A stretch of DNA of 64,000 nucleotides, from positions 399,779-463,778 of the forward strand of contig JBBHKE010000060.1 in assembly GCA_037447655.1 (NCBI GenBank), read 5' to 3'. Made by a program: the position numbers and the translations under genes. A model generated the notes under the pieces. It was given only the letters and a program-made list of their open reading frames with translations, was not told the origin of the DNA and ran no database searches. This DNA is from Zygnema cylindricum. Lineage: Eukaryota > Streptophyta > Zygnematophyceae > Zygnematales > Zygnemataceae. Shown here one piece after another: positions 12,282 through 64,000 of the stretch (position 1 is the first letter of the stretch; each line of letters opens with the position of its first letter).

Positions 12282-12296
12282 AGTTATGGGCCCACC
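12282..12296 (+). other. Primer-binding site of Copia A (half-tRNA-iMet type)
   Basis: AGTTATGGGCCCACC abuts the LTR end. From position 12283 onwards it is complementary to the anticodon arm of plant initiator tRNA-Met (from memory GGUGGGCCCAUAAC), the half-tRNA primer mode known from Drosophila copia and yeast Ty5. The ATG at 12286-12288 also starts gag. Confidence 0.75.
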
Positions 12297-29012: not shown

Positions 29013-29017
29013 CCTCT

Positions 29018-31010: not shown

Positions 31011-32304
31011 ACCGCAGAAGCCACCCAAACTATCATGCAAGAAGCTAAGCGAAGCTAGGCCAATGAACAATCATTTGAAATGCATCCTCCATTTAACATA
31101 CAACAACATTTAGGGTTTCATGGAATAATCAACATAAATAAACCCTATGACAATATCTAAGGTTTGATGGAATAATCGACATAAACAAACCCTAAGACAA
31201 ATGCATAAACAATGCATATCAAACATATATAAAAACATAAATAAATAATAACACACAAATGCATCACACATAAACAAAAGTATAATCAAATAAACATTAT
31301 ATCATTCAAAGTGCATGACCTAATCGACAACCCTAAAACACTACATCTTTGGTCCCCACTTTACTAACCAGCATTAATTGTTCATTCCTAACAAAGCTCA
31401 TTCCTATATATACACTTGTGAGCTGTCAAATAATCACTAAGTGTCATAAATTACGTTACTGTCACTAAATCCTATTTACGCATAATAACCTTTTAGTAAG
31501 AGTAAACTAATCGTAAGCGTACACCTGAAAGACAAGCAATCGTAAGCGTACACTTGTCTGCAAATACGACACATAAAGACACACAATTAAACTGTCGATA
31601 TCCTCATTGATCACCTAAAATATAACTATTTTAATCAACACTAAATCATTAATTCAAATAAGACAAAACATTGATGCTTCAAATATTTACACCGACGCAT
31701 CCAAAAATCCGCGTCATAAGTGACAACTTGCTTAGTCACTTGTCGATAAGTCCACGCAGCAAGCCGATGTCACATACTTACGGCCCACTTGATCATACAT
31801 TCTCAAAATAGTGTGATCCATCAAAAAGCGGCGACCTTTGTCCGCCGTCCGTAGCTCTTTATTCGGCACCTTCGATGTCGCGCCACGTGGTCACAAAAAT
31901 CCAAGTGAAATCTGCGCGTGTCGTTAAATATCCCACAACTGTCGCGAAGTGAATTCACGTCCACTTGCCGAAATAATATCGTACAGCCGAAATCATTTTC
32001 GTACCGCAAGCGCGTCCCTTGTAATAAATGCGCTTGTCGCATTTTGTTTCGTACGCCATGCGTACATTTTCACACTTCGAAAATTTCAAATCGGATCGCT
32101 TCGCGATCCGCCGTCCATTTACATTGCGCATTCCGCGCAACTCAATTAGTCCTTCACGTACATTTAATTTTCTTCGTACATTTACTCCCCCAATCCGCAA
32201 ATCTATTCGAACCTCCACACTACATCGCGTAAATGCGCACGCACGCGAACACGCGCACGCACGAAACGCTCCGTACGCACGAAACTAATTTTTCAAAAAC
32301 AACA
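30988..32304 (-). repeat. LTR copy 1 of the nested non-coding element
   Basis: Starts TGTTGTTAATTGGTCTAAA on the + strand and ends AACAACA. Dense CG-containing blocks lie around 31850-32110, including palindromic GATCGCTTCGCGATC at 32093-32107. Confidence 0.88.
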
Positions 32305-33182
32305 CTCCCCCGAAAAATTAGTCTCGTGCATCCATGGCGCCACGTCATCAGCTGTCACCAATGTTACCAGGTGTCACACCTGCTTTCAACTCCCTTCTCC
32401 ATCTTAATCAGCCAAATTCCTCCAACAAAATTTTCCCACTTGTTTCACCATCGCTTCCGCTTCCTCCACATACCATCCAGATTTCATAATACATAATATA
32501 TATATTTTTCATTTTCCGATTACAACAAAATAATTCCTTCCAATATCTAAATCCGGATTTACATTCCCAAAATTCTATCACAAATCAACTAAAAATTAAA
32601 GCCAAAAGGTCACACTAATAATATATCTTCCCTCAAATAATTCCTACCTCATTATAACAAATCTAGATTTCAATAATAATTTTTTTTTTTCTTTTCATAA
32701 ACTATCAAATCCCAAAATTTCCCATAAAAAATTCATAAACAAAATAGTATTTTCCCAAAAACTATAATAATGTCACATTTCGCAAAAATTTCCAACAACT
32801 CAAAATCTACATTACAAATCCAATTTTCAACAATCATCGATCCTCAAAATTTGGATCTCTCCACCACATGTCACAACTCCACCTTCCGGATCTCTCTCCC
32901 CCAAACGTCGAATCTCCACCTTCCACATCTCTCCATCAAACGAATATGTATTTTCCAAAAATAAATTATCATTTCTCATAATTAATCATTTTCATTGAGG
33001 GTAGACATTCGGCACTGTCACTAAGTTAACCCTTGGGGCGATGCAAGATTAAACTCGGCACATACCAACACTATGATAAGGCCGATCTCATGGGTACACA
33101 GACACCATTACTGCAATACAACCAGCAAGGACAATATTAACCCGCTACAATGCGTGTGACAAAAACCTACATCGACTTAACC
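32305..33182 (-). other. Interior of the nested non-coding LTR element
   Basis: AT-rich, without a reading frame of known type. The CTCCCCCG end (minus-strand CGGGGGAG) is the likely polypurine tract. No recognisable initiator-tRNA primer site was found at the opposite end (GGTTAAGTCGATG on the minus strand). Confidence 0.7.
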
Positions 33183-34498
33183 TGTTGTTCTTTGGTCTAA
33201 AATAGACCGCAGAAGCCACCCAAACTATCATGCAAGAAGCTAAGCGAAGCTAGGCCAATGAACAATCATTTGAAATGCATCCTCCATTTAACATACAACA
33301 ACATTTAGGGTTTCATGGAATAATCAACATAAATAAACCCTATGGCAATATCTAAGGTTTGATGGAATAATCGACATAAACAAACCCTAGGACAAATGCA
33401 TAAACAATGCATATCAAACATATATAAAAACATAAATAAATAATAACACACAAATGCATCACACATAAACAAAAGTATAATCAAATAAACATTATATCAT
33501 TCAAAGTGCATGACCTAATCGACAACCCTAAAACACTACATCTTTGGTCCCCACTTTACTAACCAGCATTGATTATTCATTCCTAACAAAGCTCATTCCT
33601 ATATATACACTTGTGAGCTGTCAAATAATCACTAAGTGTCATAAATTACGTTACTGTCACTAAATCCTATTTACGCATAATAACCTTTTAGTAAGAGTAA
33701 ACTAATCGTATGCGTACACCTGAAAGACAAGCAATCGTAAGCGTACACTTGTCTGCAAATACGACACATAAAGACACACAATTAAACTGTCGATATCCTC
33801 ATTGATCACCTAAAATATAACTATTTTAATCAACACTAAATCATTAATTCAAATAAGACAAAACATTGATGCTTCAAATATTTACACCGACGCATCCAAA
33901 AATCCGCGTCATAAGTGACAACTTGCTTAGTCACTTGTCGATAAGTCCACGCAGCAAGCCGATGTCACATACTTACGGCCCACTTGATCATACATTCTCA
34001 AAATAGTGTGATCCATCAAAAAGCGACGACCTTTGTCCGCCGTCCGTAGCTCTTTGTTCGGCACCTTTGATGTCGCGCCACGTGGTCACAAAAATCCAAG
34101 TGAAATCTGCGCGTGTCGTTAAATATCCCACAACTGTCGCGAAGTGAATTCACGTCCACTTGCCGAAATAATATCGTACAGCCGAAATCATTTTCGTACC
34201 GCAAGCGCGTCCCTTGTAATAAATGCGCTTGTCGCATTTTGTTTCGTACGCCATGCGTACATTTTCACACTTCGAAAATTTCAAATCGGATCGCTTCGCG
34301 ATCCGCCGTCCATTTACATTGCGCATTCCGCGCCACTCAATTAGTCCTTCACGTACATTTAATTTTCTTCGTACATTTACTCCCCCAATCCGCAAATCTA
34401 TTCGAACCTCCACACTACATCGCGTAAATGCGCACGCACGCAAACACGCGCACGCACGAAACGCTCCGTATGCACGAAACTAAGTTTTCAAAAACAAA
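33183..34498 (-). repeat. LTR copy 2 of the nested non-coding element
   Basis: Nearly identical to the copy at 30988-32304. It lacks one base in the terminal AACAACA and differs by scattered single substitutions. Confidence 0.88.
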
Positions 34499-34503
34499 CT
34501 CTA

Positions 34504-37033
34504 GAGTCTACTTTCTGAAAACAAAGTCTGAAGCATCATCTTACTTCAAAGTATATAAAGCTTGGAGTGAGAAGTTGCATGACACCCCCATTAAGAGGAT
34601 AAGGAGTGATAATGGGGGGGAATATACCTCTAACGAGTTTGAGGAATATCTGAGAGATGAGGGAGTGCAGCACCAGAAAACTGTACCATATAACGCGAAA
34701 CAAAATGGGGTAGCTGAGAGGTTGAATCAAACACTAGGAGATAGTATACGTAGTATGTTGGCAGTCAAGAAAATAGGAAAGAGATTTTGGGCAGAAGCAA
34801 TGAATTGTGCTAACTACATTAAGAATAGAGTCATTACCTGAGCTGTAAAGGGAGTGACACCTTATGAGAGATGGGTTGGAAGGAAACCAGATATCTCATA
34901 CCTTAAAGTATTCGGTAGCCAAGTTTACAGTCTTGACACGAATAAGAAAAATTGGAAACTAGATGCTAAAGGAAAACCTGGATACTTTGTGGGATATGAT
35001 GAGGATGTTAAGGGATATAGAGTTTATGACTTAGCAAAAAAAGATATCATTCTGGTCAAACACTTAGTTGTCATGGATGAAGGGAAGTCATTTGACCCTT
35101 TTAAATATACGAAGAAGATAAGGATCAGATTTGAGTCTGAAAGTGAGGACAACTCGGTCGTTCCCGAAAGGGACATGGGTGAAACCGTGATTACAGATTC
35201 AGGGGAGATCCAAGATACAGGAGACTCACCGGAAACCTCACATACTCCTATGGACTTCGAGGAGAAAGAAGAAGCGGGATAAGAACCGGTTTTCATGGAC
35301 AGGGGAGCGGATGAGAATGTGAGAAGAAATCCAGGACTTCCATCCATTCTTGCTTCGGAGTTTGAGGGAGGAAGGAGGAGCAGCAAAAGATTACAGGAAA
35401 AACAAGCCGCTCATAAGGTAACAAAGCTATCTCAACCTGATGAGCCCCAGTCTTACTCGGAGGCAGTGAATAGTCCAGAAAAAGAAAGATGGATTAGAGC
35501 TATAAATGATGAGATGGCTTCTATCATGGAAGCAAATACTTAGGAACTAGCAGATTGTCCTCCAGACAGAAAACCTATTGGGTATAAATGGGTATTTAAA
35601 CTAAAACCGAACCCAGATAATACCATTGAAAGATATAAGGCTCGATTAGTAGCGAAAGGGTTCACCCAAAAGGAGGGTATTGACTATGAGGAGACCTTTG
35701 CCTAGTTTTTCGGTTTCCATCAGTAAGGATTCTCCTTAGTCTGGCAGCAGCGGAAGACATGGAAATACATCTGATGGACATTAAGACTGCTCTCCTCAAT
35801 GGTGAGTTAGAGGAAGAAATTTTCATGAGACAACCCGAGGGGTTCGTGGAAGAAGGAGAAGAGAGCAAAGTCTACAGGCTCATAAAGTCCTTATATGGAC
35901 TAAAGCAGGCTCCACGACAATGGAATAAGAAACTAGATGAATTTCTTACCGGTCTGCGATATATCCTTGTCAGCTGTGACCATTCTATATATATGTTTGA
36001 AGATGAGAATGGTGTCATTTTTATTGCAATTTATGTGGATGATCTGCTTGTGTTGAGTAAATCCTTGGAAAAGATCAATAAGTTAAAAACAGATCTTAAA
36101 AGCAGATTTGATATGAAAGATTTAGGGGAGGCAAAATATATTTTGGGGATCCAAATGGAGAGAGATAGGGGGAAGAAGATTATCAGACTTACTCAGAAAG
36201 AAGCAATACGAAATATGCTTGAGAAATTCCAGATGGAAAATGCTAACAGTTGTACCACTCCCATGGGCTTGAAAAAAGTAAGTGATGGGAGTGTAGAAGG
36301 AGGAGTGATGATCTTAGATGATCAAATGAGTACAGAAGAGAGAGATTTTATGAAGACTATCCCTTATAGACACGTCGTAGGAAGTTTAATCTATTTTATG
36401 AATTGTACCAAGCTGGACATAGCGGCAGCTATTGGAGTACTCAGAAGGAGTCTTAATGATCCTAGGAAGAGGGATTGGGAGGCAACCAAAAGAGTCATGA
36501 GATATCTCGTAGGAACCAGAGAGTTGTGGTTGCACTTGGGAGGGGAGCACACTGACATCACTACTTAGAGTGATGCCAGTTATAGGGACGCACCTATGAG
36601 ATGATGCACTTCTGGGTATGTGTTGTATGTTGGGGAAGGTGCATGCTGTTGGACCAGTAAGCAACAAAAGGTGGTTGCTCAGTCCACTATGGAGGCTGAA
36701 TACATGGCCTCTTGTTCTGCTGTGAAAGAGTTGATGTGGATCAAGTCCTTGTTGCAAGAACTGGGGTATATCATTGAGGGAGTGTATGAAGTGTTTTGTG
36801 ATAATCAAGCGGCCATAGCAATTGCAGCCAATCCAAAACATCATTTTAAGGCTAAACATATGGACATAAGATTAAGTTTTGTAAGAGAAAAAGGTGAGAA
36901 TAAAATAGTGAATCTTGTATATAGATCTGATGAGGAAATGGTAGCGGACATGATGACCAAACTTGTGCCCTCACCAAAGTTAAAATACTGTAAGGAAAAA
37001 TGTGGATTAAAAGAAAAATTAAAAATAGTCTAG
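34504..37033 (+). pseudogene. Copia B integrase core, reverse transcriptase and RNase H
   Basis: The integrase resumes behind the nested element with SDNGGEY and NGVAER, and is stopped by TGA near 34840. The C-terminal integrase region (GKPGYFVGYDEDVKGYRVYD) is read at 34854-35282. RT is stopped by TAG near 35541 (Trp expected) and near 35703. It keeps MDIKTALLNGE and the catalytic YVDDLL at 36032-36049. RNase H is stopped by TAG at 36566-36568 (Trp expected) and resumes at 36620-37033 (EAEYMASC, DMMTKLVPS). It is clearly homologous to element A through the whole length and is not functional. Confidence 0.9.
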
Positions 37034-41267: not shown

Positions 41268-44200
41268 GTGTGTGTTTTCAACCATGGATCTCAATAAAGA
41301 CCTTTAATTTTTTTTTTTTGTCTTTAAGCAGGAAAAAGTTTTTTATTTTTTATTTTTTTATTTTCAATGTAGCTTGTGTTATCAATGTTTTCTTGCTGAA
41401 CGTGTATTAATGTAGACTTAAATACTCATTGCAAATGCACTTACCATGGTCAGCTATGTACTTTTTGTCATGTTTGATGTTGTGTGATTTCTTCATTTGT
41501 TTTGAAGTTATTGCTCTTTTCTCAACTTTGAATAATTTACAAAATTACTAAATCTTTATGGTTTACTTAACTGTTAATATGTTTGAGTGACTTGGAGACT
41601 GACACAAAGGCTGGTGCTCTTCTGGTTTTCGGGTCCAGAGAGCTCGTTTTGGTTCTCAGGGATTTCTTACTTGCTTTACGAAGTTTATTGTTCTCTCTCG
41701 TCTTACAATTGTTCACCTGATTGTTTTAAGTGATATTTTACAAGGTTGGATGGCTTGGAGACGGATAAAGACGGTTCTTTTTTCTTCAATTAATTGTTTT
41801 TTGTGATTTTTACAAGTTTGGAAGATGGCCTCGAGACTGATACCGACAATTCTTTGTTATTCGGATGGACAGAGCTCGAGGGTTTTCAGCCTCCGATTTG
41901 ACTTCCAATCGAGGGCCCGAATCCGGTTCAATAGGAGGAGAAGGAGAGCCCCAAACACCTCCTCAAGTTGCTGTGGAAACTGGACGTTCTTCCTCTTCTT
42001 TGGAGGCTCCTTGTAAAGCTGGACAGAGCCTTTTCGTAACTCCACGGAGTTCTTTATCAATTGTCAATAATGATTCTCCTCCGAGTCGAGAGTCCATGGA
42101 AGCTTGTTTAATGGAAGAAAATGGCAGGATAATAGAGCATCCATTATCAGATGGTGAGAATAATCTGGACAAAAGGGGAATGCAGCAAGAATTTGGGAGG
42201 AGGAGTAGTGGCCACTGTTCTTCGAGGAATTTGGGTTTTCGTGAATTGGAGAAGCCGGGTGTTGCGTTGTTTTGCGAGTCTACCGATCTTCTTCGTGGCA
42301 GCAATTCTTCTTCTGATGGAGTTCACTGTTTGGTGGGAGCATCTTCAGTGGAGGCAAAAGTCAAAGTTGAAACTATTTGTCGGAGGACACTGGTGACACA
42401 TGCAGAAAAAAGATCGGATTACTATGAAGAAGAAGATGTATCTCTCAACGAAAGAGATTGGGAGGAAGAGTATTCTATCAGACAACCGAGTGATGGGACC
42501 GCACGTGAAGGAGCTTCTACGGATATAAACACTTCCGTTAATGCCAAAAATGACGAAGAAAATGATGAAAACCGATATCGATCTCATTCTGGATTAAAAT
42601 TGAAAAATCCATGCAGGATGTTTCTCCAGACGTCTTCGGTAAGCGAAGTTGAAAGTGATGTTTTGGATATGACTGTCCTTTTACTGCACATATTGTTGTC
42701 CTTTGTTATAAATGTCCATCATTAATGTCCTTTATTGCACACATTAATATCCTTTACCATTGTGACTGTTCTTTTATTCAAATTACTGTTCTTTTATTGC
42801 ACATCTTAGTGTCTCCTATAATTTTTACTGGCTTTTGTGTATATTATGTCCTTTGTTGCAGTTACCGGCTGGTTTCGAATGGAATAATGGAGGGAATTGG
42901 AGCCCAAAACGCAATGTCACAGCGTCTGTTACGCAGACAGTGAACTCGAAAGTCATGACAACTGTTACAACTCTGGTGACCATGACTGAAAATCAAACTA
43001 TATTACAAAATGTCTCCATTCCTGACTCTCCCGAAGAACATATTCTTACAGCGGCAAGTTTAGAGGAGCCACAACATGGAAGCTGGAGTATCAATTGCAT
43101 GGAAGCTCCCGCCTCGTCGAATATGGACGAGCTTCTTGCACCTGTGAACGAAGGTCCCGATGCGAATATGGAGTCTTTACAAAATCTGGATGACGATCCT
43201 ATAGACAATATGGACGGTTGTAATAAATCGGTTGTGGATACTGATATGCAGGCGGCGGCTGAGTCACTTGAGTGGATACGCTCTTCACCTTTGAAAATTG
43301 CTCGTCCGAGTTCTAAGTCTGGAGAAAAATTTCGGAAAACGCAGAGTGAAATTCAAACAACAAACAGCAACGAGTCGTCGAAAGTGCCCATGAAGGAAAT
43401 TTCTGGTGAACCACAGCAATTTTCTGAGCGAAACAATGTTTTGTCAGGCGGGACAGCTGTTATCAACAACTATAAAACAGAAAGCTCGAAACAGGAGTTG
43501 AATGGTTCAACCGTTCGGTTTGTTAGAGGGGGAAATACTGTAAAAGCAGCAAGATCCATAGCTTTCAAAGACTCTGTTGTTGTTGCTGGTCAGGAAGAAT
43601 CCCTTAAGAGCCCATCCAGTTCTCCTTCTCACACAAATTTGCCGAAAGAAAATTTGAGCATTCCCACGGCCTCGCAAGGATATCCCAGTCTCAATCCCAA
43701 TCCCAATTCCAATCCCCATCCCAATCCCCATCTCAATCTCAATCCCAATCCCGATCCTAATCCCAATCCCGATCCCAATCCCAATGCTAGCATTAATGTG
43801 GGGGCTTTGCCAAGTAATACACGAACAGGGTTTGGATTGCATTTGAACAGTCTTAAAGGCGTGACCGTGAATCCTCTCCTTCGTGGAAATTCCCTTAAAG
43901 AACAAACATGGCAAATGAAGTCAGGAGCTGCTTCGTCAACCCTTGTGATTGGTCCTTCTTCCTCCACCGACCCTCCAGATTCGAAAGCAGTTAAAAATTT
44001 GGATATTTCGTCATCTTCTTTGGTTCAGTCACAAATCTTTTCGCTTACAAAGTCGGTCTCGTCTCTCAATCCGGGTCCCGTTCCTGTAAAGCCTTCGATA
44101 TCGGAACTGAGCTCATCTTCACCGTCCGTCACACTATCAGATTCTCCATCAACTGGTTCTCAGGCGATCCATGGGGAAGTTTCAGTTGAACAAAGAACTG

Positions 44201-47200
44201 AAGGCATAAAGAGTGATTGCGTAAGGAGTGAGGGTGTAAAAACTGAATTGGTAAGAAGTGAAGGCATGTCGATTGTGGGAGCGGGAGATCCAAGCCCTAC
44301 CCCTTATCCCACCTGGAATTACGCTCAAGACTCGTTGTTAGTGAAGACAGCTGTCACGAGGTTTCCTTCCTCAGAAACACCTTCTACTTCTACCAGCCAC
44401 CTCCATTCTCCTACTTGTGAGGACAGACAGTCTTTACAGGATACTCAGACATCCTCCTCCTTTTCTCAAAGTTCAATTTTGGGAGGAGCACCCAGACAAA
44501 TTACTGCTCCAATAACTGTTACAGATTTTAACAGACAGAATGGTAATGTGACAGAGAGTAATTCGACTCCATCATCAGAATTGGTCATGGGATCCAGTAA
44601 TAGAATTATGCATAGTTGGGAGATGACAAGTTCCTATGGTTGGGAGGAAAGTAAGGCCGAGGAGAGTCATTGTGATCGAATAGTTGTGACTGAAGGAAAA
44701 CGTCTCCTGGGAGAGTATGGAGCCATTGAAATGGGCCCTTGTGAAAGCGAGGAGATGATTCACAGCAGTGACAGCAAACGAAAGTGAGATGGTTTCTTTT
44801 TCTTTTTTTAGGTCTGAAATATGTTAGTTTTGGACAGCGTAATAAATTCTCCTAGTGCCACAGCTATACTCGGAAGTCAAATGACGAACAGCATATCTTA
44901 GCTTTCTTTTCTTAGCTTTTATCTTATTAGCTTTTTCTTTGAAATTGTTGGTTGTTATCGAGACAGCTGGGCTTGTCTATTCGTCTGTCAGGTAGATGTC
45001 TGAGACCGTGTTGGTCCTGGGTTTTTTCCGAATTGGTATAACATGTTTATTATGACCTGGCTTTGATTTTCTGTTTTTGAAGGTGTTTGAAGTAATTTAT
45101 ATTTTTACGTCCCAGTAGGACTTCCACCTTGAGGAGTTGCTGAAAGTTCAATTTTTGCTCGTTGTTGTTCCCTTTCAAATGACGAACAAAACATTCTCTA
45201 ACGGATTCTGTTGAGTTTCTTATTTTTGGCTGCTCTACAGACAAAAGGACGTATCCGCATGTAGGCGATGCAGTTGTAAGAAATCAAGATGCTTAAAGCT
45301 GTAAGGGCCCCACTTTGGTTTTGTATGGTTTTCTATGGTTTTTGGGCTTTTTTAGGATTAGGATCATTTCATATTTGATAGACAGTGACTTTGAGAGTCT
45401 CATTACTTCATTTTTTTTTGCAGGTACTGCGATTGTTTCCGGTCCGGCCTTTATTGCACAGGTCCGTGTCGGTGTGAGGATTGCCAAAATACACCCGAAT
45501 TTGCAGAGCTTGTCAGGGGAACAAGAGAACAAATTGAAAGTCGAAATCCTCTCGCTTTCACTCCAAGGATCGTCCACGCTTCGGATTCTGTACAGCAAGC
45601 AGCAAATGTACGATTGTGGAACTGAAAATTGTTTTGTTTTGCAACTGACGTATGTATACATAGTTTCTGAGATGGAAAAAGAGCCTTGCTGAAGAATATT
45701 ACAACATGTATCACTAGTTCTAAAGGACTTTTTAGCCTTGAAGCAGAATAATCGATGCTATTTGTAGTGTAAGCATGGTTTTATGGATGATTTTTGGCTG
45801 CCTGTACAATCAAGTTTTCTACTGTTTTCTTTTCAAAGGCAAAAAAAAGAAGAAAAAGATTGTGTTGTTAACTTAATAAGGATTCAGGGTGGAGTCGAAG
45901 ACTCTGCCTTATATATTGTAATACATTTCCCTGACTTGATAGTTTTTGAACTTCAGTGAGTTTGGCCTGAATTCGAGACACATCCTTTATACCCTAACTA
46001 CCCTTGATAACCTGCAGAAAGCATCATGGAATAGGTGTAGTTCACCTACTTATGGTGAAAAAAATGATAAAAACACGGATGTGAAAGTCTTTTGAGGAAC
46101 TTGCCACACCATTTTACAGTTCCTGGATGTTTTTATTTAGGTCTAGCATCCGCTTTAATTAATGGACTTATTATCCTTATGCCTGTATCTACTATTCTTA
46201 TTAACTTTTTATTTTCCATCGCAGGAAGAAGGACAAGAACTGATACCCGCAGCAAAACGACATAAGAGCGGTTGCAATTGCAAAAAGTCGATGTGTTTGA
46301 AGAAGTACTGCGAGTGCTACCAGGTGAATTGACACAAAAAGGCCTTTATCTGTTAATTGAGTATTCGTTTATGGAGTATTCTTTACTGGAGTGTTCGTTA
46401 ATATGCATTGTATCGCTTTTATTGAAGTTTTCAGTCCGTGTCTAGTTGTTACCAGTGAGTTTCCATCTAATGTTTTTGCAAACGTAAATTGTGTGTTTTT
46501 TTTCTTTTTCTATGCATTCTTGGGAAGGAGGAGGATATTATATTGAAAAGGACAATAGTCACATGAGTTCTTAAGGATTACCAATTTTCAAGTGTCCCTG
46601 ACAGTCATTTTTAGTGATACTAAACTTTCAAGAACTTTTTTATTGCAGGCTGGAGTGGGATGTACCGATGGATGTCGATGTGAAGGGTGTCAAAATATTC
46701 ATGGGCAAAAAGGCAGTAAGTCAAACTTCTAAATTTGGCAATATATGTTATTTTATTATGGACATCCTTTTATACCGTAATACTGCTCATTTTAAACTTT
46801 GACTTCCGACTCAATTTTCCTTTTTTTTTGTGGGAAACGGGTTTGAGAGAACAATTTTGTAGTGGTTTGACTTATGGGAGGGACTATACATCGTTGTATT
46901 GAACCAATGGTACATCGTTGTATTGAACCAATGGTACATCGTTGTATTGAACCAATGGTTAAGCTATGTATGTGTACTTTTAGGGTGTTTTAGGTTTTTT
47001 ATGTACATACATAATGAAAATCTTGAAAACGTCAGCGAATAAAATAAAACGAAGTGCTAGTATATACTTTCCCGTAAGAAAATTAAAAATATCTTTTGTT
47101 GTTGTTTTTTTTTCATTTCCCTCTGGTTGCAGATGTCCCCTCTTATCCCGATGAAACAATTCGTTCTCAAGACTTTTCTATCGCAATCGAACATCATCAT

Positions 47201-48618
47201 GGAGGTTTGGAAAATTTGGAGGAACAGACAGGCGCCCATGGATTTTTATCTCCCAGCAATGTGGACGGGCCTCGCAAACAATCGGTTTTCTCTCCCATAA
47301 CTCCATTTCAACAATCAGGGTAAGAAACTGAGTTTTTTCTTAACCGTTTTTACCACAAGTGAATGGTTTTGGGCCTTTGAAAAATGTAACAGGTTTCCTT
47401 ATTTGTAAATAAGGAATCCGTGTTTTGTTGACAGCAGTTTTTGACTGCAGTCGGTTTATAAAATAGTAGTACACTCCTTTTTTCCTTCATTACATTGTGA
47501 ATCGCTTTTGTTGTTAAGAAATTTATAAGCGTCGATTTTTAATCGCTTACCATATTAGCGTTAAGAATAGAAGCAACTATTATTGTAAACGCTATTTGAT
47601 GTTCATGGGCCAGAATTAGTTTTTTTTCTTTTCCATTGTTTGTCATTTTTTTGATTATGTTCTTTGCGATTTTCTGCCATCGCTTCTTTTTTATTATTCT
47701 TGACGAAAAATCGGAATCTTTTTGTCTTTTCTTACCCGCAGGATTGTACCTTGGTCATTATCCAAAGAATATACTCCTTCAAGAAAGTTTTCTTTGGACC
47801 CGGGCAGTGGACAGTTACACCCCTTTTTCATCGCCCCATCTCCAAGAAAAGAACCGAAAAAGGCCTCTCTCTCTCCCCGAGCAAGTCTCTTGGGCGGTAA
47901 CGATTCTGTCTCCTCCCTCTCCTCCCTCTCTCCTCCTCCAACCGTGGAAAACTCAACTACTGTCACTCACGGCTTGGGGAGAACTAGCCATGCCTTCTCA
48001 AATAGTTCTTATGAAGATGGACCTCACGGGGGAGGGACGTCCAGGAAAATGACGACAAATTCGATGGGAGGGGGAGGAGGAGATAATACTCCTTTTACTT
48101 CACCTTCTACTTTACGACAATTGACATCGTGTACTCTTGCCACTACTCGGGCCATTTTTCGAACTCCGGCTCCACGGTCTCCCTCCTCTTCTATCTCTCA
48201 ATCGACTTTGACAAAGATAACGGGAGGTAGTACTATCCACGGAGGAGGAGGAGGAGGAGGAGGAGTTGGAGGAGGAGGAGAGGTTTATACTCCAGGAATT
48301 ACCTCGGAGATGATTCACATGTCGACATTGGATGAAGAATCGGACGAAGAGGGAGAGGGAGAGGGAGGAATTACCGACAGCTTCGAGGCTCCTCCTATGG
48401 TCTCCACCAAACTGAGTTCACCGAATAAGAAGAGAGTGTCTCCCGTAAAGCAAGTGAAAACGTCTCAAGCAGGTACAAAAAGGGGCATTCGTATCATGTA
48501 TGGCAACAATAATCATAATAATAATAACAATATGAATAGTAATAACATCAGTTTATCGGAAAATGATCAATTTGGAGCTCCGCGAGCTTTGAGGGACGAG
48601 GTCAATTCTTTGATGTGA
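40618..48618 (+). CDS. TCX: TSO1/tesmin-like CXC (CPP family) transcription regulator
   Basis: CPP proteins are nuclear DNA-binding regulators (plant TSO1, animal LIN54/tesmin). Nine exons join with matching phases: 40618-40784, 41873-42638, 42862-44783, 45241-45300, 45424-45607, 46225-46323, 46649-46715, 47133-47319, 47742-48618, for 1442 codons plus TGA; the initiating exon is missing. The start carries the family's N-terminal motif (DALSPIRH, then [10 protein letters not shown]). CXC1 (residues about 958-994, [18 protein letters not shown]) is followed by the linker signature RNPLAFTPR (1012-1020). CXC2 (about 1047-1083) is [18 protein letters not shown] then [14 protein letters not shown]. 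The C-terminus has the family-like FSPITPF and [10 protein letters not shown]. The protein is unusually long, because about 640 Ser/Asn-rich residues separate the N-terminal motif from CXC1; this stretch includes a PNPN/DPNP repeat at 43690-43790. The 41873 junction is the least certain. Confidence 0.9.
41193..41264. repeat. (TA)n microsatellite in CXC-gene intron
   Basis: About 35 TA units between the first two recognised exons; it gives artefactual Tyr/Ile frames. Confidence 0.95.
47488..47600. mobile_element. Degenerate TACATTGTGAATCG MITE in CXC-gene intron
   Basis: TACATTGTGAATCGCTTTTG resembles the ends of the TA-type MITEs elsewhere in the window. Inner AATCGCTTAC and TTAGCGTTAAG motifs repeat the pattern. 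Lies in the last intron. Confidence 0.4.
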
Positions 48619-49425: not shown

Positions 49426-50370
49426 GTTAGGCAAGACTTCCAGTTGTTTGGTAAACCAAGCTCGCTCGAGAAAAAAAAAAAAACTCGTCGTATAAAAGTC
49501 GAATGGAATGGGGATATATGAAAAAATGTAAAACAACTCCCGCTTGACTCCCATAGAAATTGGAGAGCTTGCGATGTACATATTTTAATGTGGGTAATAA
49601 CGACATCTTGTATGTGTTTTTTTGACTTTATCGCTGTTATAATAGCACCTTTTTTTGGAGTTGGAATGGAAAATTTTGTTTTCGAATATGCTTAATTTTT
49701 TTTTTTATTGGGTTGAAACCCTAAAGATACCTGGAATAACAGGGAGTGTTTTTTGGACTGACATGTAAATCATTTTGTTGTTAAAACCTTGTCTTAAAAA
49801 CAGTTCGTCAAAAAATTAAGAGGTAAAGGGTAGATTTGTGAGTACAAACAAAAATTATATATGGGCATATTTGTTTTGTTTTATTTTTGTGGTTTTGAAC
49901 CTCGAACCTTTTTTCTCATTTTTTCTATAAATTAGTCAAGATCGGTTTACAATAACAATACGCTACACTGTTTCTTTGTTTTGCCGTTGATATTATTCAC
50001 GAAGATTAATAGACATTCACTAGCATTCAACAAAACATTCACAATTGATATTCGTTATTTTCACCATCTCAATAAACTCCTGTATTGCACATGATTTTCA
50101 TTTGGAGAATGCAAATAAGAGTGGTAATAATAAAAAAAAAAAGAAAAAAAAAGGGGCCGACTTTATTAAAAAGTGCGATGGTAAACCATCTGAGTCCATA
50201 GGAACAAAAAGAAGTAGAATTGCTAAAACTGAAAAACCACAGAACAAGGGAATAAACAAAAGGGAAAATCAAGGCAAAACCTACGAAAATACGAAAGGAT
50301 GGCAGGGAATTCGAAAACACCCAAAAAAGCAAAACCCAACAAACGAAACATCAAAGGAAAAAACTAACAC
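49426..50370. other. Intergenic, A/T-rich
   Basis: No gene seen. About 50180-50370, read on the minus strand, matches 53300-53480 on the + strand and is probably the 3' tail of the non-LTR element family described next. Confidence 0.45.
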
Positions 50371-50399
50371 ATAGCAAAAAACCCCCAACAAAACTAAAA

Positions 50400-51650
50400 A
50401 TTTACAGAAAGCAACCACGTAAGTCCCCGAAACCCGGAGGTGCATGAGGAGGAAGTTCCGGAACACGCCGTCGATCCATAACAGCGATAGACAATCGAAA
50501 TAATATAGAAGCCAACCCCCGTTGTAGGGCCACAGAAAAACGTTGACGATAAAAAGAAGTAAGGACTGAAACTGGAGGGCTCCGAGGTCCTCACCTCTCG
50601 AACGAGCGCCGACCACAAGTACGGAAAAACTCGTCCAAAGCCACACCAAAACAACCAAATATCTCGACCGCCATCGGAATGAAGCCATCCATATCGTCGC
50701 GATGGGCATAATCACGCTCTTTCCTTTTAGCTGCGTCACGCGCAGCCACTCCCATATGCCGAGCCGCTTGGTTGACGACTGTAGTTGAGGTAGGGTTCGT
50801 AAAAACAATGTCACCAAAAATACAACGTGCACCATCAAGTAATACAAGGTCGATCCGACGCGAAGGAATAATGTGAGAGACCTCGCGACGAACAGAAAAT
50901 CCCCCCTCAGAAGCGATAGTAGCGATGGTGTCTCGAATCGTGTCGTGCGCATGAATCAACTCGCCCCCGTGGGAGCAACGAAGCAAATGGACCCCGTCCG
51001 CCTCGAAAACGTGGCCGCAGAAGCAAACAAGTGAGCCAAGCAAAGGTGGGTGAGGGAGGCCAAGCCGGAACCTAAGGACCGTGGTGAACTAAGCCGGGGT
51101 GAAACGAATAGTGGATAAGATGGGGACGGCCAATAGCCAAGCTCCAGAGCCAGGTCCACCACAAGACAGAAAACGTGCACGCGAAGAATTGGAAGGAAGC
51201 GCCTGAAGAAGCTTGGATTTAATAGCGGCGACAACCCTATCAGAAATGGATTCTTGAACACGCGCAACTGATGTCGTAACGAGAGTGGAAAAATTGGCAT
51301 GTCCTCGATAGCAGCCGGATTAAGAGAACGTGATGTATCCAAAAGGGACCGCTGGAAGGCGAGCTCACCATCCGAAACACGGGGAACCAAGGCCGCAAGA
51401 ATAGGAGTGTCCCCGGCCCGAAACAAGAGACAATAGTGGAAGCAACAAGGCACTAACTCCCCGAATAGGCGGCTGGAGCAACACGCACCGTCGAGAGTAA
51501 CCCAAACCGCCAATTGAGACAGGAAGAGAGGCTTGGATGCGTGCCGCAGGCCCAGGCTCGCGATCAAAAGCTCCACGGCCCAACAAAGTGTGGAGGACAT
51601 CCATAAGGCGATCATCGAATGTAGAGAGTGAGGACACAAAGGATGGGGTG
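50400..51650 (-). pseudogene. Non-LTR retrotransposon fragment: RT C-terminus and endonuclease-like region
   Basis: On the minus strand the part at 51365-51637 reads FDDRLMDVLHTLLG and ARIQASLPVSIGGLGYS, the pattern at the C-terminal end of LINE-type reverse transcriptases. Part 50591-51043 reads CFCGHVFEADGVHLLRC (CxC, H, C zinc-knuckle-like), then HDTIRDTIATIA, RRIDLVLLDGARCIFGDIV and KERDYAHR, the layout of a PD-(D/E)XK-like endonuclease found after the RT in R2-type elements. The RT core (FADD box) is not present and frameshifts separate the parts. The family assignment rests on motif pattern from memory. Confidence 0.7.
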
Positions 51651-51816
51651 GGAGGGGAAGTCCGGGTAAGGTAGGAGGGCCGGTGAGTGAAACACCCATT
51701 GCAACTTTAGCCTTTGTAAGCCGACGAGTGTGCACGAAAAAAAATTGAGTCTAAAGGCACTAAGACCAAAAGGTTTACATGATGTACAGATCAATTGGAC
51801 AAATTTCAGATAGGAC

Positions 51817-55739: not shown

Positions 55740-56765
55740 AAATTTCTGCGAGATTTCGTGCGAACTTTCGCGCATTTTTTTCGGTCCGCGCGTTTTTTTG
55801 AGTTTCAACTTCTTCATTTTTTAACGCCTATTTTTTCAAACTTACAAAAACAAGGATCGAGAAATCTTCCAGCCATGGTTCAAAAATGTCGTCATCTTGT
55901 CACTTTTTGATCATCTCCTTCTTTCAAATCTAAACTAAAAAGATTTTTTCTTTTTGTAAATAAGATTCGTAAACCCTAAAAATGCAACAACTCTATTTAA
56001 GACTCTCAAACTCTTATTGATTCTCAAAATCTTTGATAGATTCTCAAAATCTTTTATAGATTTTCAAAATCTTTTATAGATTCTCTATTTTCTACATTGT
56101 CCAAAATATAATTTTTGTATACTTTTTCGCAATCTTAAGGATAACAAATTGAAATATTTAACTTTTTAACACTTTAAACATCATTTAAATTGGTTTCTAG
56201 GGTTTTTGCTACTTTTCCAAAAGCCTAATGTATTTGAAAACCTTACAAATTCCTCAAACTCTTCTGACCTCAAAAGCAATTCAACCTTTAAAATTTACTT
56301 CAACACCTTAAACTTTTTTCAAAAAACATACGACATCAAAACCTCGCAAACTCCTCATAAGTTTTTAGGGTTTTTTAGGGTTTATTAGGAGTTTGTAGGG
56401 TTTTCTCATGAGTTATAGGGTATCGTGTGCCCTAAAATTTTGTCGAATTCAACAATCCTGGGTTTGCAAACCCTAAAATTTCAAATTACTAATTCTAAAA
56501 TCCTCGATCCTTAAAACCCTTTAAGTCCCTAAAATTCTATAAACCCTAAAGCCCCCGAACCCTAAACAAAAATTCTAAACCCTAATTAGCCCTAAATTTG
56601 TAAAAATTCCTAGCCCATGAAATTCGTAAACCTTGAAAACCCTAAAAAACCCTAAAAAACCCTAGGAAACCCTAAAAATCCCATTAAGAAACTGTTAAAA
56701 ACTCGAAAAAACCCTAATAAAACCTCACAAAACCCTAGATGGTTCTTAATCCCATTGTACGGTAG
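55740..56765. other. Upstream region of the BED gene, CCCTAAA-rich
   Basis: The second half is full of scattered AAACCCTAAA words but not in a tandem array. An in-frame TAG (56763-56765) directly precedes the ATG at 56766. Promoter elements were not identified. Confidence 0.45.
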
Positions 56766-57720
56766 ATGATTTCTGACACGAGTCCTATTCCCATGGATCC
56801 TCCTCCCACCCCTCCTCCTCTCCCTCCCTCCCCCGAACAAAACCAAGAACCACAACAAAATCCTGAAGGAAACTCAGTCTCTCCCACGCTCTCTTCCTCT
56901 CCCTCTCCCCCCCCTCCTCCAAGTGGAGACCCCCCTTCATCTCCTCCTCCTCTCCCCCAACCAAATGACAGGACTCCACCCTCTCTCTCCCTCCCTTCTG
57001 AAAACACTCCCTCTACTCTCCCCTCTCACTTATCTCAGACACTGACTCGGGACACACCTCCCTCTTCTCCCTCTCCTCCTTCTGACACCTCTCCCTCTTC
57101 CCAGCCTCCGGAAACAGCTCCCTCTCACACCTCTCCCTCTCACCCCTCTCCCTCTCACCCCTCCTCTCCCCCTTCCCTCGCTCCCTCTCACCTCTCTCCC
57201 TCTCCCTCTAACCTTCTTTCGTCTGACCCCTCTTCCTCTCCCTTCCCTCCTCTTCCTCCTGCTCTTGTACGGGGCACCTTCCCTTTGTTTGAGTCCTTAC
57301 CTCGTGGTCCTCATCCCCTCTCCCTCTCCCTCCCTCCTGACTCTTCCCCTTTCCCTCAGCCTCCTATGCCCTCTACCTCCCCTACCTCTTCTCTCCCCTC
57401 TCCTTCTCTAGCGACCTCTATCCCCTTCCTCTTCTCTCCCTCTCACCCTTTGACTACCCTCCTATCCAACGTTTCCACTCTCTCTCACCTCCCTCCCTCC
57501 TTTAACCTTTCCGTCACTCCCGTCACCCCCGTCCCTCCTATTCCCTCACCCCCCCATGTCCCTCCCGTCCCTTCCTTCACCTCCCTCTCCTCCAACCATT
57601 CCCTCTCTCCTGTCCCTCCGGTCCCTCCCTTCACCTCCCTTTCCTCCAGCTCTTCACTCTCCTCCAGTCCCGCCTTTCCCTCCTTCCCCTCTCCCCCCCC
57701 CCTCCCCTCTCCTCCCCCCC

Positions 57721-57796
<76 letters not shown>

Positions 57797-60588
57797 TGCC
57801 TGGCCCTCTATTCACGCTGTGGACCCCCCCTCTTCCTCCCTCCCCTCTCCCTCCCTCTCCTCTTCCTCCCTCCCGTCTTCCTCCCTCCCTTCTTCCTCTT
57901 TTCCCTCCCTCTCGCACCCTTCCTCTTCCCACCCTTCCCATCCCTCTTCCTCCCACCCGTCTTCCTCCCACCCCGCTCACGCCTTCCACCTCTCTCCTTC
58001 TCCCTCCCTCCCCTCCCACCCTTCCACCTCCCACCCCACCCACCCCTCGCCCGCCCTCTCCTCTCCCTCCCGCCCCTTGCCCTCCCATTCCTCCATCCTC
58101 GCACTTCCCTCCCCCTCGTCCCCCTCCCCCTCTCCCTCTCCCTCCTCCCCCTACAGCCGTGGCAAGGAGGCTGGACCCGCTTGGCAGTCTGTACAGGTAT
58201 TTCCTTCCCCCTCCTTCCTCCCCTCCCTCCCCTCTCCCCCCCCCTCCCTGCCTCCCACCTCTCTCCCCCTTTCCTTTCTCCCTCCCTCCCCTCTTCCTCC
58301 GCCCTCCCTCCCCTCCCGTCTGCTTTTCCCTCCCTTTTTCTCCTTCCCCTGTCCCTCCCCTCGACTCCTTCCCCTCTTTCTCCTTCCCCTCTCCCTTCCC
58401 TCCTTCCCCTCTCCCTCTCCCTCTCCTTCCCCCGATATTCACCCTGAAATATCCTGGACTTGAAACTACCCCCAGTGGTTCTACTCTTAGTACCATTTTA
58501 GTACATAGATATATAACTATCGAATACATATATACATACATGTACACACACACACACGCACAAACATATATGTATGTATATATATATATATAATACTTAT
58601 ATACATATATATATATACGTACATACATACCTATGTACATATACATATACATACATATGTATGTAGAATACTAAAATGGTATATAGAATATATACCATTT
58701 TAGTATTTTACATACATATGAATGTATATGCATGAATGTATGTATGTATGTATGCATGTATATATATGTATATATATGTATATATGTATATGTGTTTGTA
58801 TATATGAATATGTATGTATATATGTGTATATATATGTATGTATGCATATATATGTATGTATGTTTATATATGTGTGTATGTATGTATATATATGTGTGTA
58901 TATGTGTATCTATGTATATTTATACACGTATACGTACATATGCATATACACATATTTGTGTTTGTATATGTGTATATATGTATATACGTGTATATATATG
59001 TGTGTATATATGACACACACACAGACACGTATATATATATATATATATATATGTGATATTATAGGGTTATATCAAAGAATTTATTTTGCACATGAGGTAA
59101 TATTGAGTCTGTACATTATATTTTTCCGTAAAGGTAGTGAGGCTAAGGGGACTGTATGGGACAAGGTATATAGAATTTGGGGTTTGTTGTTATGCACATG
59201 AGAGAATGTTGATTCCATACATTGTCTTTCCCATACACTGTACTTTCCCGTAAATTGTATTTTTTATCCGAACATTGTGCTTGTCCATACATTGTTATTT
59301 CTATTTTCTCCGCTCATGTCCTTTTCCTTACACACCTGTACAATTGTACTGTTCGGTTCACCAATACAATTGTACTATCCGTACTCCCATACAGTTATAC
59401 TATTCCGTACACCCATACACCGCACCTTCCCGTACAGGTGGTGAATTTGTCCGTACTTTTATTTTTTCTTTTTTTCCTTGGTTTTTCCCTGTACATTTGT
59501 ATTTTTCTGTACATCCTCACAATTGCACCATATATTCACACAATTGCACCATACAGCGTAATACAATTGTGCCAATTGTCCTTTTCTGTACACCCACACA
59601 ATTGTACTTTCCCGTACATCTGTACACCTAGCTATCCCGTACAGGTGGTGAATTTGTCCGTACTTTTATTTTTTTTCCCCTCATTGGTTTTTCCTCGTAC
59701 ATTGTACCTTTTCTATACTCGTTCAATTGTACCGTACACCCGTACAATTGTACCATATATCCGCACCATTGTACTGTACAGTGTAAAACTGTACCACATT
59801 GCCTTTTCTGTGCACCCATACAATTGTACTATTCCGTACATCTGTCCACTGCACTGTCCCGTACAGCGGGTGTACTTGCCCATACTTTATTCTTTTCTTC
59901 TTTGCTCATTGGTTTTTCCCCTGTCAATTATCCTTTTTCCATGCACCCTATGACTACACCTTACATCCGTACAACACACACCCTACACCCGCACAACTGT
60001 ACTGTTCTTACAACTACAATGTCCGTACAGCCACAATGTTCGTACAGCCACAATGTCCTTACAACTGCACTTTCCGTACTACTACACCGTTCCTTACAAC
60101 CACACTGTCCGCACAACTGTACTGTCCGTACAATTTTCCCGTACAGCCACAATGTTCTCACAACCACACTGTCCGTACAACCGACCCGTACTGCACCGTA
60201 CTATGTCCGTACAGGTGGTGGGACCGGGCGGCAGCAACCGGCAGCCGCGGGTGGCGTGTCGGCACTGCGGGCACCGCTTCACGGGGGGGAGCTTCCGGAT
60301 AACAGGGCACCTGCTGGGGACGCCGGTGGGGGTGGCGAGGTAGGGAGAGAGTGAGAGAGTCTTTTTTTTTGGGTTTGTTGAGGGTTTTTTTTTTTTTTGA
60401 TGGAGGGAGTTTTTGGATAATGGGGCGTTTCCGGAGGAAGAGTCGCGAAGCAAAGATAGTTTTTTTTTGTTTTGTTTTGATTTCTATTGTTTAGTGGTTG
60501 TTGAGTGGTTCGTTTGTGTTTTTTTTAAGAACATGGACTTTTCTTTTTGGGTGGTTTTCTAGCCATTCTGTCTTCAAACCGTTTCTCC

Positions 60589-60625
<37 letters not shown>

Positions 60626-63600
60626 TCTCTCTCTCTCTATATATATATATTTCCCACTCTCTCTCTAGCTCTCACTCTTTCTCTCTCTCTCTCTTGCTCT
60701 CTCTCTCTCTATTTCTCACTCTCACTCGCTCTCACTCTATCTCTTTTTTTTCTCTCTCTCTCTCTCCCTCTCTCTCTCTCTCTATTTCACAGAGGAAACG
60801 AAAGGAAAAACTCTTGAACAAAAACTAATAAAAAAACAAAAATAAAATATAATGAAATTATATATATAAATTAACATAAAATAACATAACATAACATAAA
60901 ATAAAATAAAACTAAATGTCATAGTTTATTCTTTTCATGCAGACGTGAACACAAAGTCAGAAATCAAACACAAAAGACAAAAAAGAAAAAGGCAAATAAA
61001 TTGTCCCCTTCTTCCTTTTTCTTTTTTTTGCACTTTTCTTTTTTCCCCCTTTTTCTTTTTCTCCCCTTTTTTTTTTTTTTTTTTTCTCCGGGCAGATGTG
61101 AAAGAGTTCCGCAAGAGGTTCGAGACGCCCTCTTGAAACACGAGAGAGGGAAGAAAAAAGCGAAGGGGGGAGGGGGAGGGGTGAAGGGAGGGAATGGGAC
61201 AACAGCCAGTGGAGGGAAGAGAAGGAGAGAGGAGGGAAACTTGCCGCCAGAGGGAGGTAAGGGAGGCAAGAAAGGGAGGAGTGAGGGAGGGAAGACGGAG
61301 AGAGGGAGAGAGGGAGAGAGGGAGAGGGAGAGGGAGAGGGGGAGGGAGAGGGGGAGGGAGAGGGGGAGGGAGAGGCAGTGGGAGGAAGAGAGAAGAGAGG
61401 GAGAAGTAGAGGCTGTAAATAACTCCAACAATAAAGAGTTATTGACATATTTAGGAGAAATCCTGGTAGAAATTCAGAGGAAAAAACAAAAAAAAAATCA
61501 GAAATATAACCAAAGCAGAAAATGTCAGAAAAAGAAAAAAGATAAAAGAAAAAAACTGAGCAAAAACTGAACAAAAATTCAAAAAAATATAGTCAGCAAA
61601 AAGTGAAAAAAAAATAAGCAAAAATTGGACAAAAATTGAACAATAATTGAGCAAAAATTGAACAAAAAGTGATCAAAAATTCAATAAAAACTAAACAAAA
61701 ATTGAACAATTTTTTTACAAAAGCTGAACAATTTGTGAATAATAAATGATAAAAAAGTGAACAAAAACTGAGAAAAAAACGAACAAAATTTGATAAGAAA
61801 GTGAGAGAAGATTAAACTGTAAAAAACTAAAACTGAACAGAATTGAACTTAAGTCGATTGAAAACCGAAGAAATTATCGAATCGAGACCTAATAGGGACG
61901 TATTTTCGTTGAAGTTTTCTTTTCTTTTCTAATCTTTTCTATTACAATTTTTATTTTCTTTTCTTTATCTTTTCAGTTTTTCACTCCTTTTCTTTTTTGG
62001 AACTAAAATTTTTTGAGGACTAAAAAAAAAAAAGGGTATTTTTTTTGCAGTCATCCCTGGGATTTTACGGAATTTCTCATTGAAGGAGCCGGAGGAATGC
62101 AAAGAGGAAGAAATGACAGCTGTAGGTTAGGCACTCTCCCTCTCCCTCTCCCTCTCCCTCTCCCTCTCCCTCTCCCTCTCCCTCATCCTCTCTCTCCATT
62201 CTCATTCTTGCCCTCTCTCCTTGCACCAATCACGACTGCAATTTTATCATTTTTCCAATTGTATTTCTTCCCGCCATGTATATATATATATTATATTATA
62301 TATATAGGTATATTTTTTTTGTTTGTTTTTTTTAGACTGAATCTTATGGCTCAGTATCGTCACTCTTCTCCGGTGACTGTCCTTTTTTTATATTAGGCAC
62401 GAACGTTTCTATGTTGTCAGTCGGAACGGAATTTATTTGAGCCCTAAAAACCCTTTTTAGTAATAACAGTTTAAATGTTGTCAGTTGAAACTTATCTTCT
62501 TTCTTTAAGTAACAAAACTTCCTTTCTTTGGTTGAGTAAAAACTGTTTTCTGTTGTCAGTTAAAACTTGCTTTTCTTTTTTGAAGTAACAACAGTTTCTA
62601 TGTTGCCTCTCCCTCTCCCTCTCCCTCTCCCTCCCCCACAGTGGAATCGGAAGCTCCCCATGTGGCTGTAGTCGCGGGAGGTGATTCTGATTTGGCGGTA
62701 ATGAGAGGGGCAGTGGAAATTTTCGAAAATTTCGGTGTTAAATATGAGGTGAGAGGGGCGTTCTATGCACTAGCAGTTCAGTTTCCAGTTTCAACTTTCG
62801 AGTCTTTATTCTAAAGCTTTTTCCGTTTTCTCGAATCTCAGTTATCTGTTCCCAGTTCCCAGTCTCCGGCTTCGGTTTCAGTTTCAGTTTTAGTTTCAAT
62901 TCCAATTCTGTTCCAGTTCAGTTTTCCGTTCAGTTTTGAGTTCAGGTTTCAGGTCAGTTTTCTTGTCAGTTTTCAGTTCAGATTTGAGTTCGGATTTCAG
63001 TTTAGATCTCAGTTCAGTTTTCAGGTCAGTTTTACGTTCAGTTTTCATTTTAGATTTCAGTTCGGTTTCAGGTCAGTTTTCCGTTCAGTTTTCACATAGA
63101 TTTCCGTCCAGGTTTTTGTTTACAGTTCATAATTCAGAACAGTTTTCAGTTCAGATTTTAGTTAAGAATTCAGTTTAGGTATCATTTCGGTTGTCAGCTC
63201 AGTTTTAAATTCAAATTTCCGTTCAGATTTTTGTTCAGTTTTCAGTCTTGTTTTCAGTTTAGTTTTCAGTTCAGATTCCGTTCACTTTTCAGTTCAGATT
63301 TCAGTTCTGTTTTCCGTTCGGTTTTCAGTTCAGATTCCCCTCCGGTTTTCAGTTTAGTTTTCAGTTCAGTATTCAGTTGAGTCTTCAGTTGTCAAACGTC
63401 GGTGCTGGTACAAGCTTCAATGCTCAGTTGTTGGTTTGCCAGTTTTCAGGGAAATTTTCAAGTTCCAGTTTCCAGTTTTCAGTTTTTAGATTTCAGTTTT
63501 CAGTTTTCTAAAGAAAAAAGACTCTAAAAACGTCACAGACCTAATTCTTTCTACCTCTTTTTCAAACAAAAGACACTAAAAATTTAACAAAACTGTATTT

Positions 63601-63946
63601 TTTTGTTTTTCCTCTTTTTCCAACCGGTGAAAACCTTATCGGCTCACAAATCTCCGGGAAAAAAAAAAGTGAAAAGAGTCTGAAAACGTCACGCAAACTT
63701 GCTTTTTTTCACCTCTTTTTAAAAGAGAGAAAGACGGTAAAAACTTCACCAAAGTTTACTTTGTCTTACCTATTTTTTTTTTTTTTTTAAAACTCCATTT
63801 TTTTTCTTTTACCTCCTTTTTTGGGCAGGTAAAACTTTTATCAGCCCACGAGTCGCCCGAAAAAGTGGCCCAATTCGCTCGAGAAGGGCAGCGGAGGGGA
63901 CTGAGAGTGATAGTCGCGGGAGCCGGGGGAGCCGCCCACTTGCCAG
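56766..63946 (+). CDS. Proline-rich BED zinc finger joined to a PurE-like domain (3' end outside window)
   Basis: Six exons join without stops and with matching phases: 56766-58196, 60215-60339, 61096-61256, 62051-62125, 62642-62748, 63829-63946 (donor GTTAGG), giving 672 codons so far. Exon 1 is Pro/Ser-rich, with a poly-Pro run encoded by pure C. Residues about 470-534 form a plant-type BED finger: AW, then [15 protein letters not shown], and CERVPQEVR (C492, C495, H509, C520). After a Lys/Gly-rich linker, residues 598-672 match PurE (AIR carboxylase/NCAIR mutase, purine biosynthesis): [18 protein letters not shown] and [13 protein letters not shown], where the usual motifs are GSDSD, SAHRTP and [11 protein letters not shown]. 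The Arg of SAHRTP is Glu here. No PurK/ATP-grasp part precedes it, unlike plant AIR carboxylase. Exon recognition is good; that all exons form one transcript is inferred from phase. Confidence 0.75.
57719..57796. repeat. Poly-C run of about 78 nt within exon 1
   Basis: Encodes poly-proline in the chosen frame. Because any change in run length would shift the frame, the assembled length matters; upstream and downstream frames agree as assembled. Confidence 0.9.
58500..59060. repeat. TATG/TATA microsatellite array in intron 1
   Basis: Long run of TATATATG, TGTATATA and TATGTATG units. Tyr/Ile/Met/Val/Cys frames through it are artefacts. It holds a near-perfect 18-bp hairpin at about 58667-58707. 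Confidence 0.9.
59270..60205 (+). repeat. Array of about 207-221 bp units with CCGTACA and acceptor-like motifs
   Basis: CCCGTACAGGTGGTG, or a near copy, starts at about 59429, 59636 and 59857, and recurs as the authentic exon 2 boundary near 60206. Each is followed in the array by a TTTTATTTTT-TTGGTTTTTCC block and many GTACAATTGTAC words. Long frames (for example 59222-59953) are repeat-derived. Confidence 0.75.
60595..60785. repeat. (CT)n microsatellite in intron 2
   Basis: Mostly CTCTCT with short TATA interruptions; no coding meaning. Confidence 0.9.
61140..61420. repeat. Purine-rich GGGAGA tract spanning exon 3 and intron 3
   Basis: Nearly pure A/G. The 5' part is coding (Lys/Gly/Arg-rich linker of the BED protein) and the 3' part, after the donor at 61257, is intronic in the chosen model. 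A longer exon remaining open to 61570 is possible but would break the phase to the next exon. Confidence 0.75.
61550..61860. repeat. Degenerate AAAAATTGAACA repeat
   Basis: Tandem 10-14 bp units (ACAAAAATTGA) in intron 3. Confidence 0.7.
62129..62640. repeat. CCCTCT tracts at both ends of intron 4
   Basis: CTCCCT repeats lie just after the donor (about 62131-62183) and again immediately before the acceptor (about 62606-62640). A TA-rich and T-rich centre separates them. Confidence 0.8.
62850..63520. repeat. TTCAGTTCAGTTTTCAG minisatellite in intron 5
   Basis: Dozens of 6-12 bp CAGTTT/CAGTTCAG units fill most of the intron between the two PurE exons. Confidence 0.85.
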
Positions 63947-64000
63947 GTTAGGGAGTGTGGACCACAATAAGTGTGGATGAAAGAGGGAGGGAGAGGGAGA

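Follow-up and report, generated by a model that had tools for sequence, protein, structure and literature searches.

A single gene in which a BED zinc finger of the hAT transposase type precedes a PurE-like domain probably lies at the end of a 64,000 nt stretch of the Zygnema cylindricum genome (assembly GCA_037447655.1, contig JBBHKE010000060.1, positions 399,779-463,778, forward strand; hereafter the window). The initial annotation had connected the two domains by one open path with matching phases at five junctions, and a scripted reconstruction of the six exons returned that path: every border is GT-AG, the phases are 0, 2, 1, 1 and 0, and the joined translation of 672 residues contains no stop. 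In this translation the finger residues C492, C495, H509 and C520, like the CERVPQEVR tail, have the positions given in the initial annotation. The exons, by window position, are as follows.

Exon 1, 56766..58196, + strand: Pro/Ser-rich N-terminal region; its end, GPAWQSVQ, fits a Trp-bearing BED start; the least certain exon.
Exon 2, 60215..60339, + strand: BED finger, CxxC...H.
Exon 3, 61096..61256, + strand: last BED cysteine and VPxxVR tail, then a basic Gly/Lys-rich linker.
Exon 4, 62051..62125, + strand: linker, with an alternative start ATG at 62113.
Exon 5, 62642..62748, + strand: first part of the PurE-like domain (VESEAPH...GGDSD...FGVKYE).
Exon 6, 63829..63946, + strand: second part of the PurE-like domain (VKLLSAHES...).

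The contig terminates at window position 64000, 54 bases past exon 6, and the rest of PurE lies beyond it.

The PurE-like exons and their origin

Exons 5 and 6 together match the AIRC profile PF00731 at E 2.1e-22 over positions 2-70 of 148, which bears out the annotated PurE domain; they also match 34 distinct solved PurE-type sequences. The match covers no more than 69 of the 148 profile positions, since contig and window end together. Similarly, the TIGR01162 score of 76.1 bits falls under the whole-protein cut-off of 149.6 because only half a domain is present.

Plant PurE is normally fused to PurK, and the initial annotation had recognized that its reading would fall if these exons belonged to such a gene. 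The genome-wide picture comes from profile and sequence searches that covered the 352.8 Mb assembly (2689 contigs). The AIRC profile has five matches, exon 6 and four on another contig, C1885; both matches of the PurK ATP-grasp profile PF02222 are on C1885, and a Selaginella PurK-PurE protein maps to that contig over both its halves. In the window, tblastn of 79 PurE-type proteins, six of them lacking a PurK Pfam entry, found no PurK, and the assembly holds no 3' AIRC exon other than that of C1885. Because PurK is missing here and an intact PurK-PurE gene stands on C1885, exons 5 and 6 are a second PurE copy, and their assignment to the ordinary gene is ruled out.

Drifting PurE copies may be found elsewhere in streptophytes. 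The Selaginella moellendorffii protein P0064 carries, at about residues 609-766 and after its normal PurE, a second, degenerate AIRC-like stretch that lacks SAHR, which we read as another sign of such drift. Two further database proteins join PurE to other domains according to their Pfam annotation, P0072 to PDZ/S41-type domains and P0074 to a Sua5-type domain; they may be real fusions or products of chimeric contigs.

The introns suggest where the copy came from. Exon 6 is 118 bases long both here and in the C1885 gene, and the intron preceding it, after FGVKYE here and FGVPHE there, occupies the same site in phase 0. The intron in HLPG has phase 1 in both genes. So does the intron before VESE, which is at the same site or two codons off: the C1885 acceptor directly before VESE scores -5.8, and visual inspection favours a same-phase acceptor six bases further upstream. 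Within the VESE linker, 11 of 12 bases are identical between the two genes.

Two observations speak against an origin by duplication. In a tree of 70 residues the copy groups with bacterial-type sequences (support 0.79) and not with C1885, a placement too weakly supported to be taken as proof; and its identity to C1885 (35/70) is no higher than that to database matches (median 40/70), which were themselves picked for likeness to this copy. The exons might accordingly have arrived by bacterial gene transfer instead of duplication of the host PurK-PurE gene, as would also fit the best protein matches among those listed, which are bacterial PurE at 55-65% identity. We consider this quite improbable, however, given the intron phases held in common with the host gene (GVKYE|V and GVPHE|V, HLPG and VESE) and the near-identical linker. 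In our judgement, the shared introns weigh more than the tree and the identity values.

The divergence of the copy from C1885 is large and has a coding pattern. Protein identity is 34/69, the 69 codons differ 22, 18 and 42 times at positions 1, 2 and 3, and dN is 0.37 against a dS of 2.3, which is near saturation; a pairwise ratio of this kind tells neither which branch was constrained nor until when. Taken together, these values speak for exons 5 and 6 being an old PurE duplicate that was kept under coding constraint.

Nevertheless, the active site has changed. In a comparison with 199 proteins, 197 of which could be aligned without gaps (the other two were unalignable), the M, S and R of the MGSxSD and SAHR motifs are invariant in all 197; here they are A, G and E. 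The active-site motifs of class I PurE (N5-CAIR mutase), GSxSD and SAHR, thus read GGDSD and SAHE here, against GS..D and SAHR in 197/197 relatives; Ser, Asp, Ser and His are retained in them. For human PAICS, PMC9376930 describes Lys304 and the Ser274 and Ser276 hydroxyls as holding the substrate phosphate, Asp277 as the ribose contact and His303 as general base. By motif, the Ser274 and Lys304 of that description correspond to the G and E here. Because these phosphate contacts are changed, normal PurE chemistry in this copy is unlikely. The initial annotation was right about both domains, where they lie and the open path; its proposal of nucleotide sensing, in the form given, is not supported, since two residues with which the fold holds the substrate phosphate are altered.

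The BED finger and its probable link to the PurE-like exons

Standard searches miss the finger. Pfam zf-BED does not match the joined translation at E<=1, and none of 242 candidates from a protein-database search with exons 2 and 3 reached E<=1. Of the two profile checks proposed initially, then, that for AIRC succeeded (PF00731, as above) and that for BED did not. In its own genome, the exon 2+3 peptide has 37 matches, two of them to its own exons and 35 elsewhere (E 0.00996-1.95, 27-37% identity, mostly over residues 12-61); the reversed peptide, used as a control, has one (E 0.113). We fetched 13 of these 35 relatives. In all of them the CxxC, H, C and P..(V) tail align with the finger studied here and lie within a single exon; one of them, L015, additionally matches DUF659 (7.6e-39) and, weakly, the hAT dimer family. 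L015 and two others, L012 and L014, score only 11.8-12.9 bits against zf-BED, under its cut-off of 20.6, which indicates that the Pfam model is too strict for this family.

We built a family profile from 12 of the 13 relatives, leaving out L022, which has an internal stop. Joined exons 2 and 3 score 37.7 bits, the exon-2 open reading frame (ORF) alone 16.7 and the exon-3 ORF alone 10.3; the best of 2000 shuffles reaches 6.5, and none of the 199 PurE-type proteins was reported at E<=10. The value of 37.7 bits is partly circular and its absolute height is favoured, because the relatives that make up the profile were found with the query itself. The telling part is the gain from joining the two exons, because the relatives have no intron there. 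Together with the reversed-query control, the family profile confirms the annotated finger and excludes a chance motif; Pfam alone would have discarded it. On these comparisons, it is a real BED finger of the hAT/DUF659 type. In the window, tblastn with four hAT/BED ORFs revealed no DUF659 or hAT dimer region following the finger; its two weak rows (E 0.06-0.07) are both the BED exon itself.

The decisive question is whether exons 3, 4 and 5 are spliced together. Sites were scored with an approximate, untrained plant matrix; with it, donor scores for the C1885 introns span 0.6-5.9 and acceptor scores -5.8 to 6.6, a variability which implies that it separates true sites only moderately. Of 420 + strand GT dinucleotides in 56-64 kb, the exon-3 donor at 61257 has the top score; the exon-4 acceptor ranks in the top 0.5% or 3.2% of 370 AG, depending on the matrix. 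Between a fixed BED tail and a fixed exon-5 acceptor, the real sequence allows five one-exon paths, of which that through exon 4 is the best. Shuffling the intervening sequence in blocks of 3-8 bases produced some path in 102 of 500 cases and an equally good one in 3 of 500; a first version, with cut-offs taken from the path itself, gave 0/100. These figures flatter the exon 3-4-5 path, which was known before the testing. Because any path arises so readily, matching phases alone are weak evidence, and what counts is the strength of the sites.

Several points weigh against a single gene. What connects the BED exons to the PurE exons is splice signals only; the ATG at 62113 and a BED frame open to 61570 permit two genes; no homologue of exon 4 was found elsewhere; and the 3' half of PurE is outside the assembly. 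No protein with both BED and PurE occurs among the 79 PurE-type proteins or the 120 of 7003 matches listed, though such searches are confined to proteins of limited length with exact word matches to the query, so that the missing homologue does not prove absence. None of the papers retrieved in a literature search contained both "BED zinc finger" and "AIR carboxylase".

The locus could instead hold two adjacent genes on the same strand, one for a short BED protein that stops at 61570 or is spliced elsewhere, the other for a PurE-like protein starting from the ATG at 62113. The exon-3 frame does stay open until the stop ending at 61570, the ATG has an A at -3, shares the PurE frame and precedes the exon-4 donor by 13 bases, and the frequency of open paths in shuffled sequence deprives phase matching of much force. 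We nonetheless regard two genes as rather unlikely: exon 3 has the strongest donor of the region, equally good paths are rare in shuffles, a whole gene boundary would have to fit into about 0.8 kb, and the exon-4 frame upstream of the ATG is open back to the acceptor.

A still less probable explanation is an artefact or a decaying locus, that is, a chimera produced during assembly in the vicinity of simple repeats and the contig end, or a partial PurE duplicate in decay that by chance lies behind a BED exon. The 75-C run and the arrays of (AT)n, (TC)n and (CTCTCC)n between exons would suit it, as would the nearby contig end and the altered active-site residues. Decay is hard to reconcile with two PurE exons that remain open, with intact GT-AG borders, at a dS of about 2.3 and with substitutions concentrated at third positions, or with BED exons that are open and spliced as their family predicts. 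As for misassembly, the final 441 bases of the contig have no second place anywhere in the assembly. Overall, we favour one BED-PurE gene: the predicted junctions of exons 2 to 3 and of 5 to 6 can be regarded as established by homology, and the join from exon 3 through exon 4 to exon 5 as likely, although unproven.

Upstream region and surroundings

Exon 1 is plausibly coding, although not firmly so. It is pyrimidine-rich, and C and T alone cannot make a stop codon; a stretch of 75 consecutive C at 57722 makes the frame across it unsure. The first 935 bases of the exon (56766-57700) are open in frame in only 15 of 2000 dinucleotide shuffles, the last 397 (57800-58196) in 1217 of 2000. Its terminal GPAWQSVQ aligns with the BED start at the Trp, raising the family-profile score by 2.8 bits. 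Only 1 of 300 random exon-1 pieces does as well or better. Among 113 open alternative donors for the BED start, the exon-1 donor ranks second, and the two that do as well or better are itself and 59166. The latter, which follows a short open stretch at 59131-59165, would provide an alternative upstream exon with a better fit to the BED start (41.6 bits, against 39.5 for exon 1).

Directly upstream of the exon-1 ATG, dense AAACCCTA / TAGGGTTT repeats lie at 56300-56766. Teloboxes are a mark of plant promoters. A bacterial promoter scan was set aside as not meaningful for this genome.

Candidate promoter or 5' leader, 56300..56766, + strand: 9 of the window's 23 + strand AAACCCTA (telobox-like) matches, part of them arranged at 56636-56737 as a 10-base tandem repeat.

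Elsewhere in the window are two Copia-type retroelements with broken frames on the + strand, at 12256-16598 and 28886-37033 (Retrotran_gag_2 at 1.4e-13 and 1.6e-10; other ORFs assigned by eye). Long Ser/Pro-rich open frames lacking a Pfam match, at 41841-44787 and 47704-48618 on the + strand, probably belong to another host gene. On the - strand, 50281-51750 holds overlapping open frames, again with no Pfam match, which we take to resemble the end of a non-LTR element.

A possible function and comparison with known systems

The gene we favour would be one streptophyte host gene whose product begins with a Pro/Ser-rich region and carries a single hAT-type BED finger, joined by a basic linker to a PurE-like domain of AIRC fold. 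Its PurE half would have been copied from a PurK-PurE gene and placed behind BED exons of hAT origin, and its catalytic function may since have been lost or changed. E. coli PurE is described as an octamer in PMC11451730. The AIRC fold could thus serve as an oligomer platform that groups several BED fingers for multivalent binding to DNA, possibly tuned by a changed ligand. That a hAT-derived finger was captured by a PurE duplicate lacking the phosphate site, giving an octamer-forming DNA-binding platform perhaps responsive to a purine metabolite or another ligand, is a tentative proposal. If true, it would mean that a core purine-enzyme fold captured a finger and had its active site altered while the ordinary enzyme was kept elsewhere, and it would show a route from a metabolic fold to a DNA-binding regulator. 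The lost invariant residues offer direct handles for testing the regulator idea.

Each half of the locus has known counterparts. With plant and fungal PurK-PurE proteins, represented by C1885 and Selaginella P0064, it shares the PurE core, the intron phases and the VESE linker, but it has no PurK, its active-site M, S and R are changed, and BED exons lie upstream. Human PAICS, a class II PurE, likewise fuses the AIRC fold to another domain and keeps the catalytic Ser and the SAH His; here, however, Ser274 and Lys304 are replaced by Gly and Glu, and the partner is a DNA-binding finger instead of SAICAR synthetase. As in hAT-type transposases and domesticated BED proteins, there is a single CxxC...H...C finger with a C..(V/C)P..V tail; unlike in those proteins, in which DUF659 and Dimer_Tnp_hAT accompany it, an intron interrupts the finger and PurE-like exons follow. 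Transposase fingers have been captured by host genes, usually beside chromatin or immune domains, and in the wheat BED-NLRs a BED finger has likewise moved into a host gene. Compared with these, the partner of the finger at the Zygnema locus is an enzyme fold.

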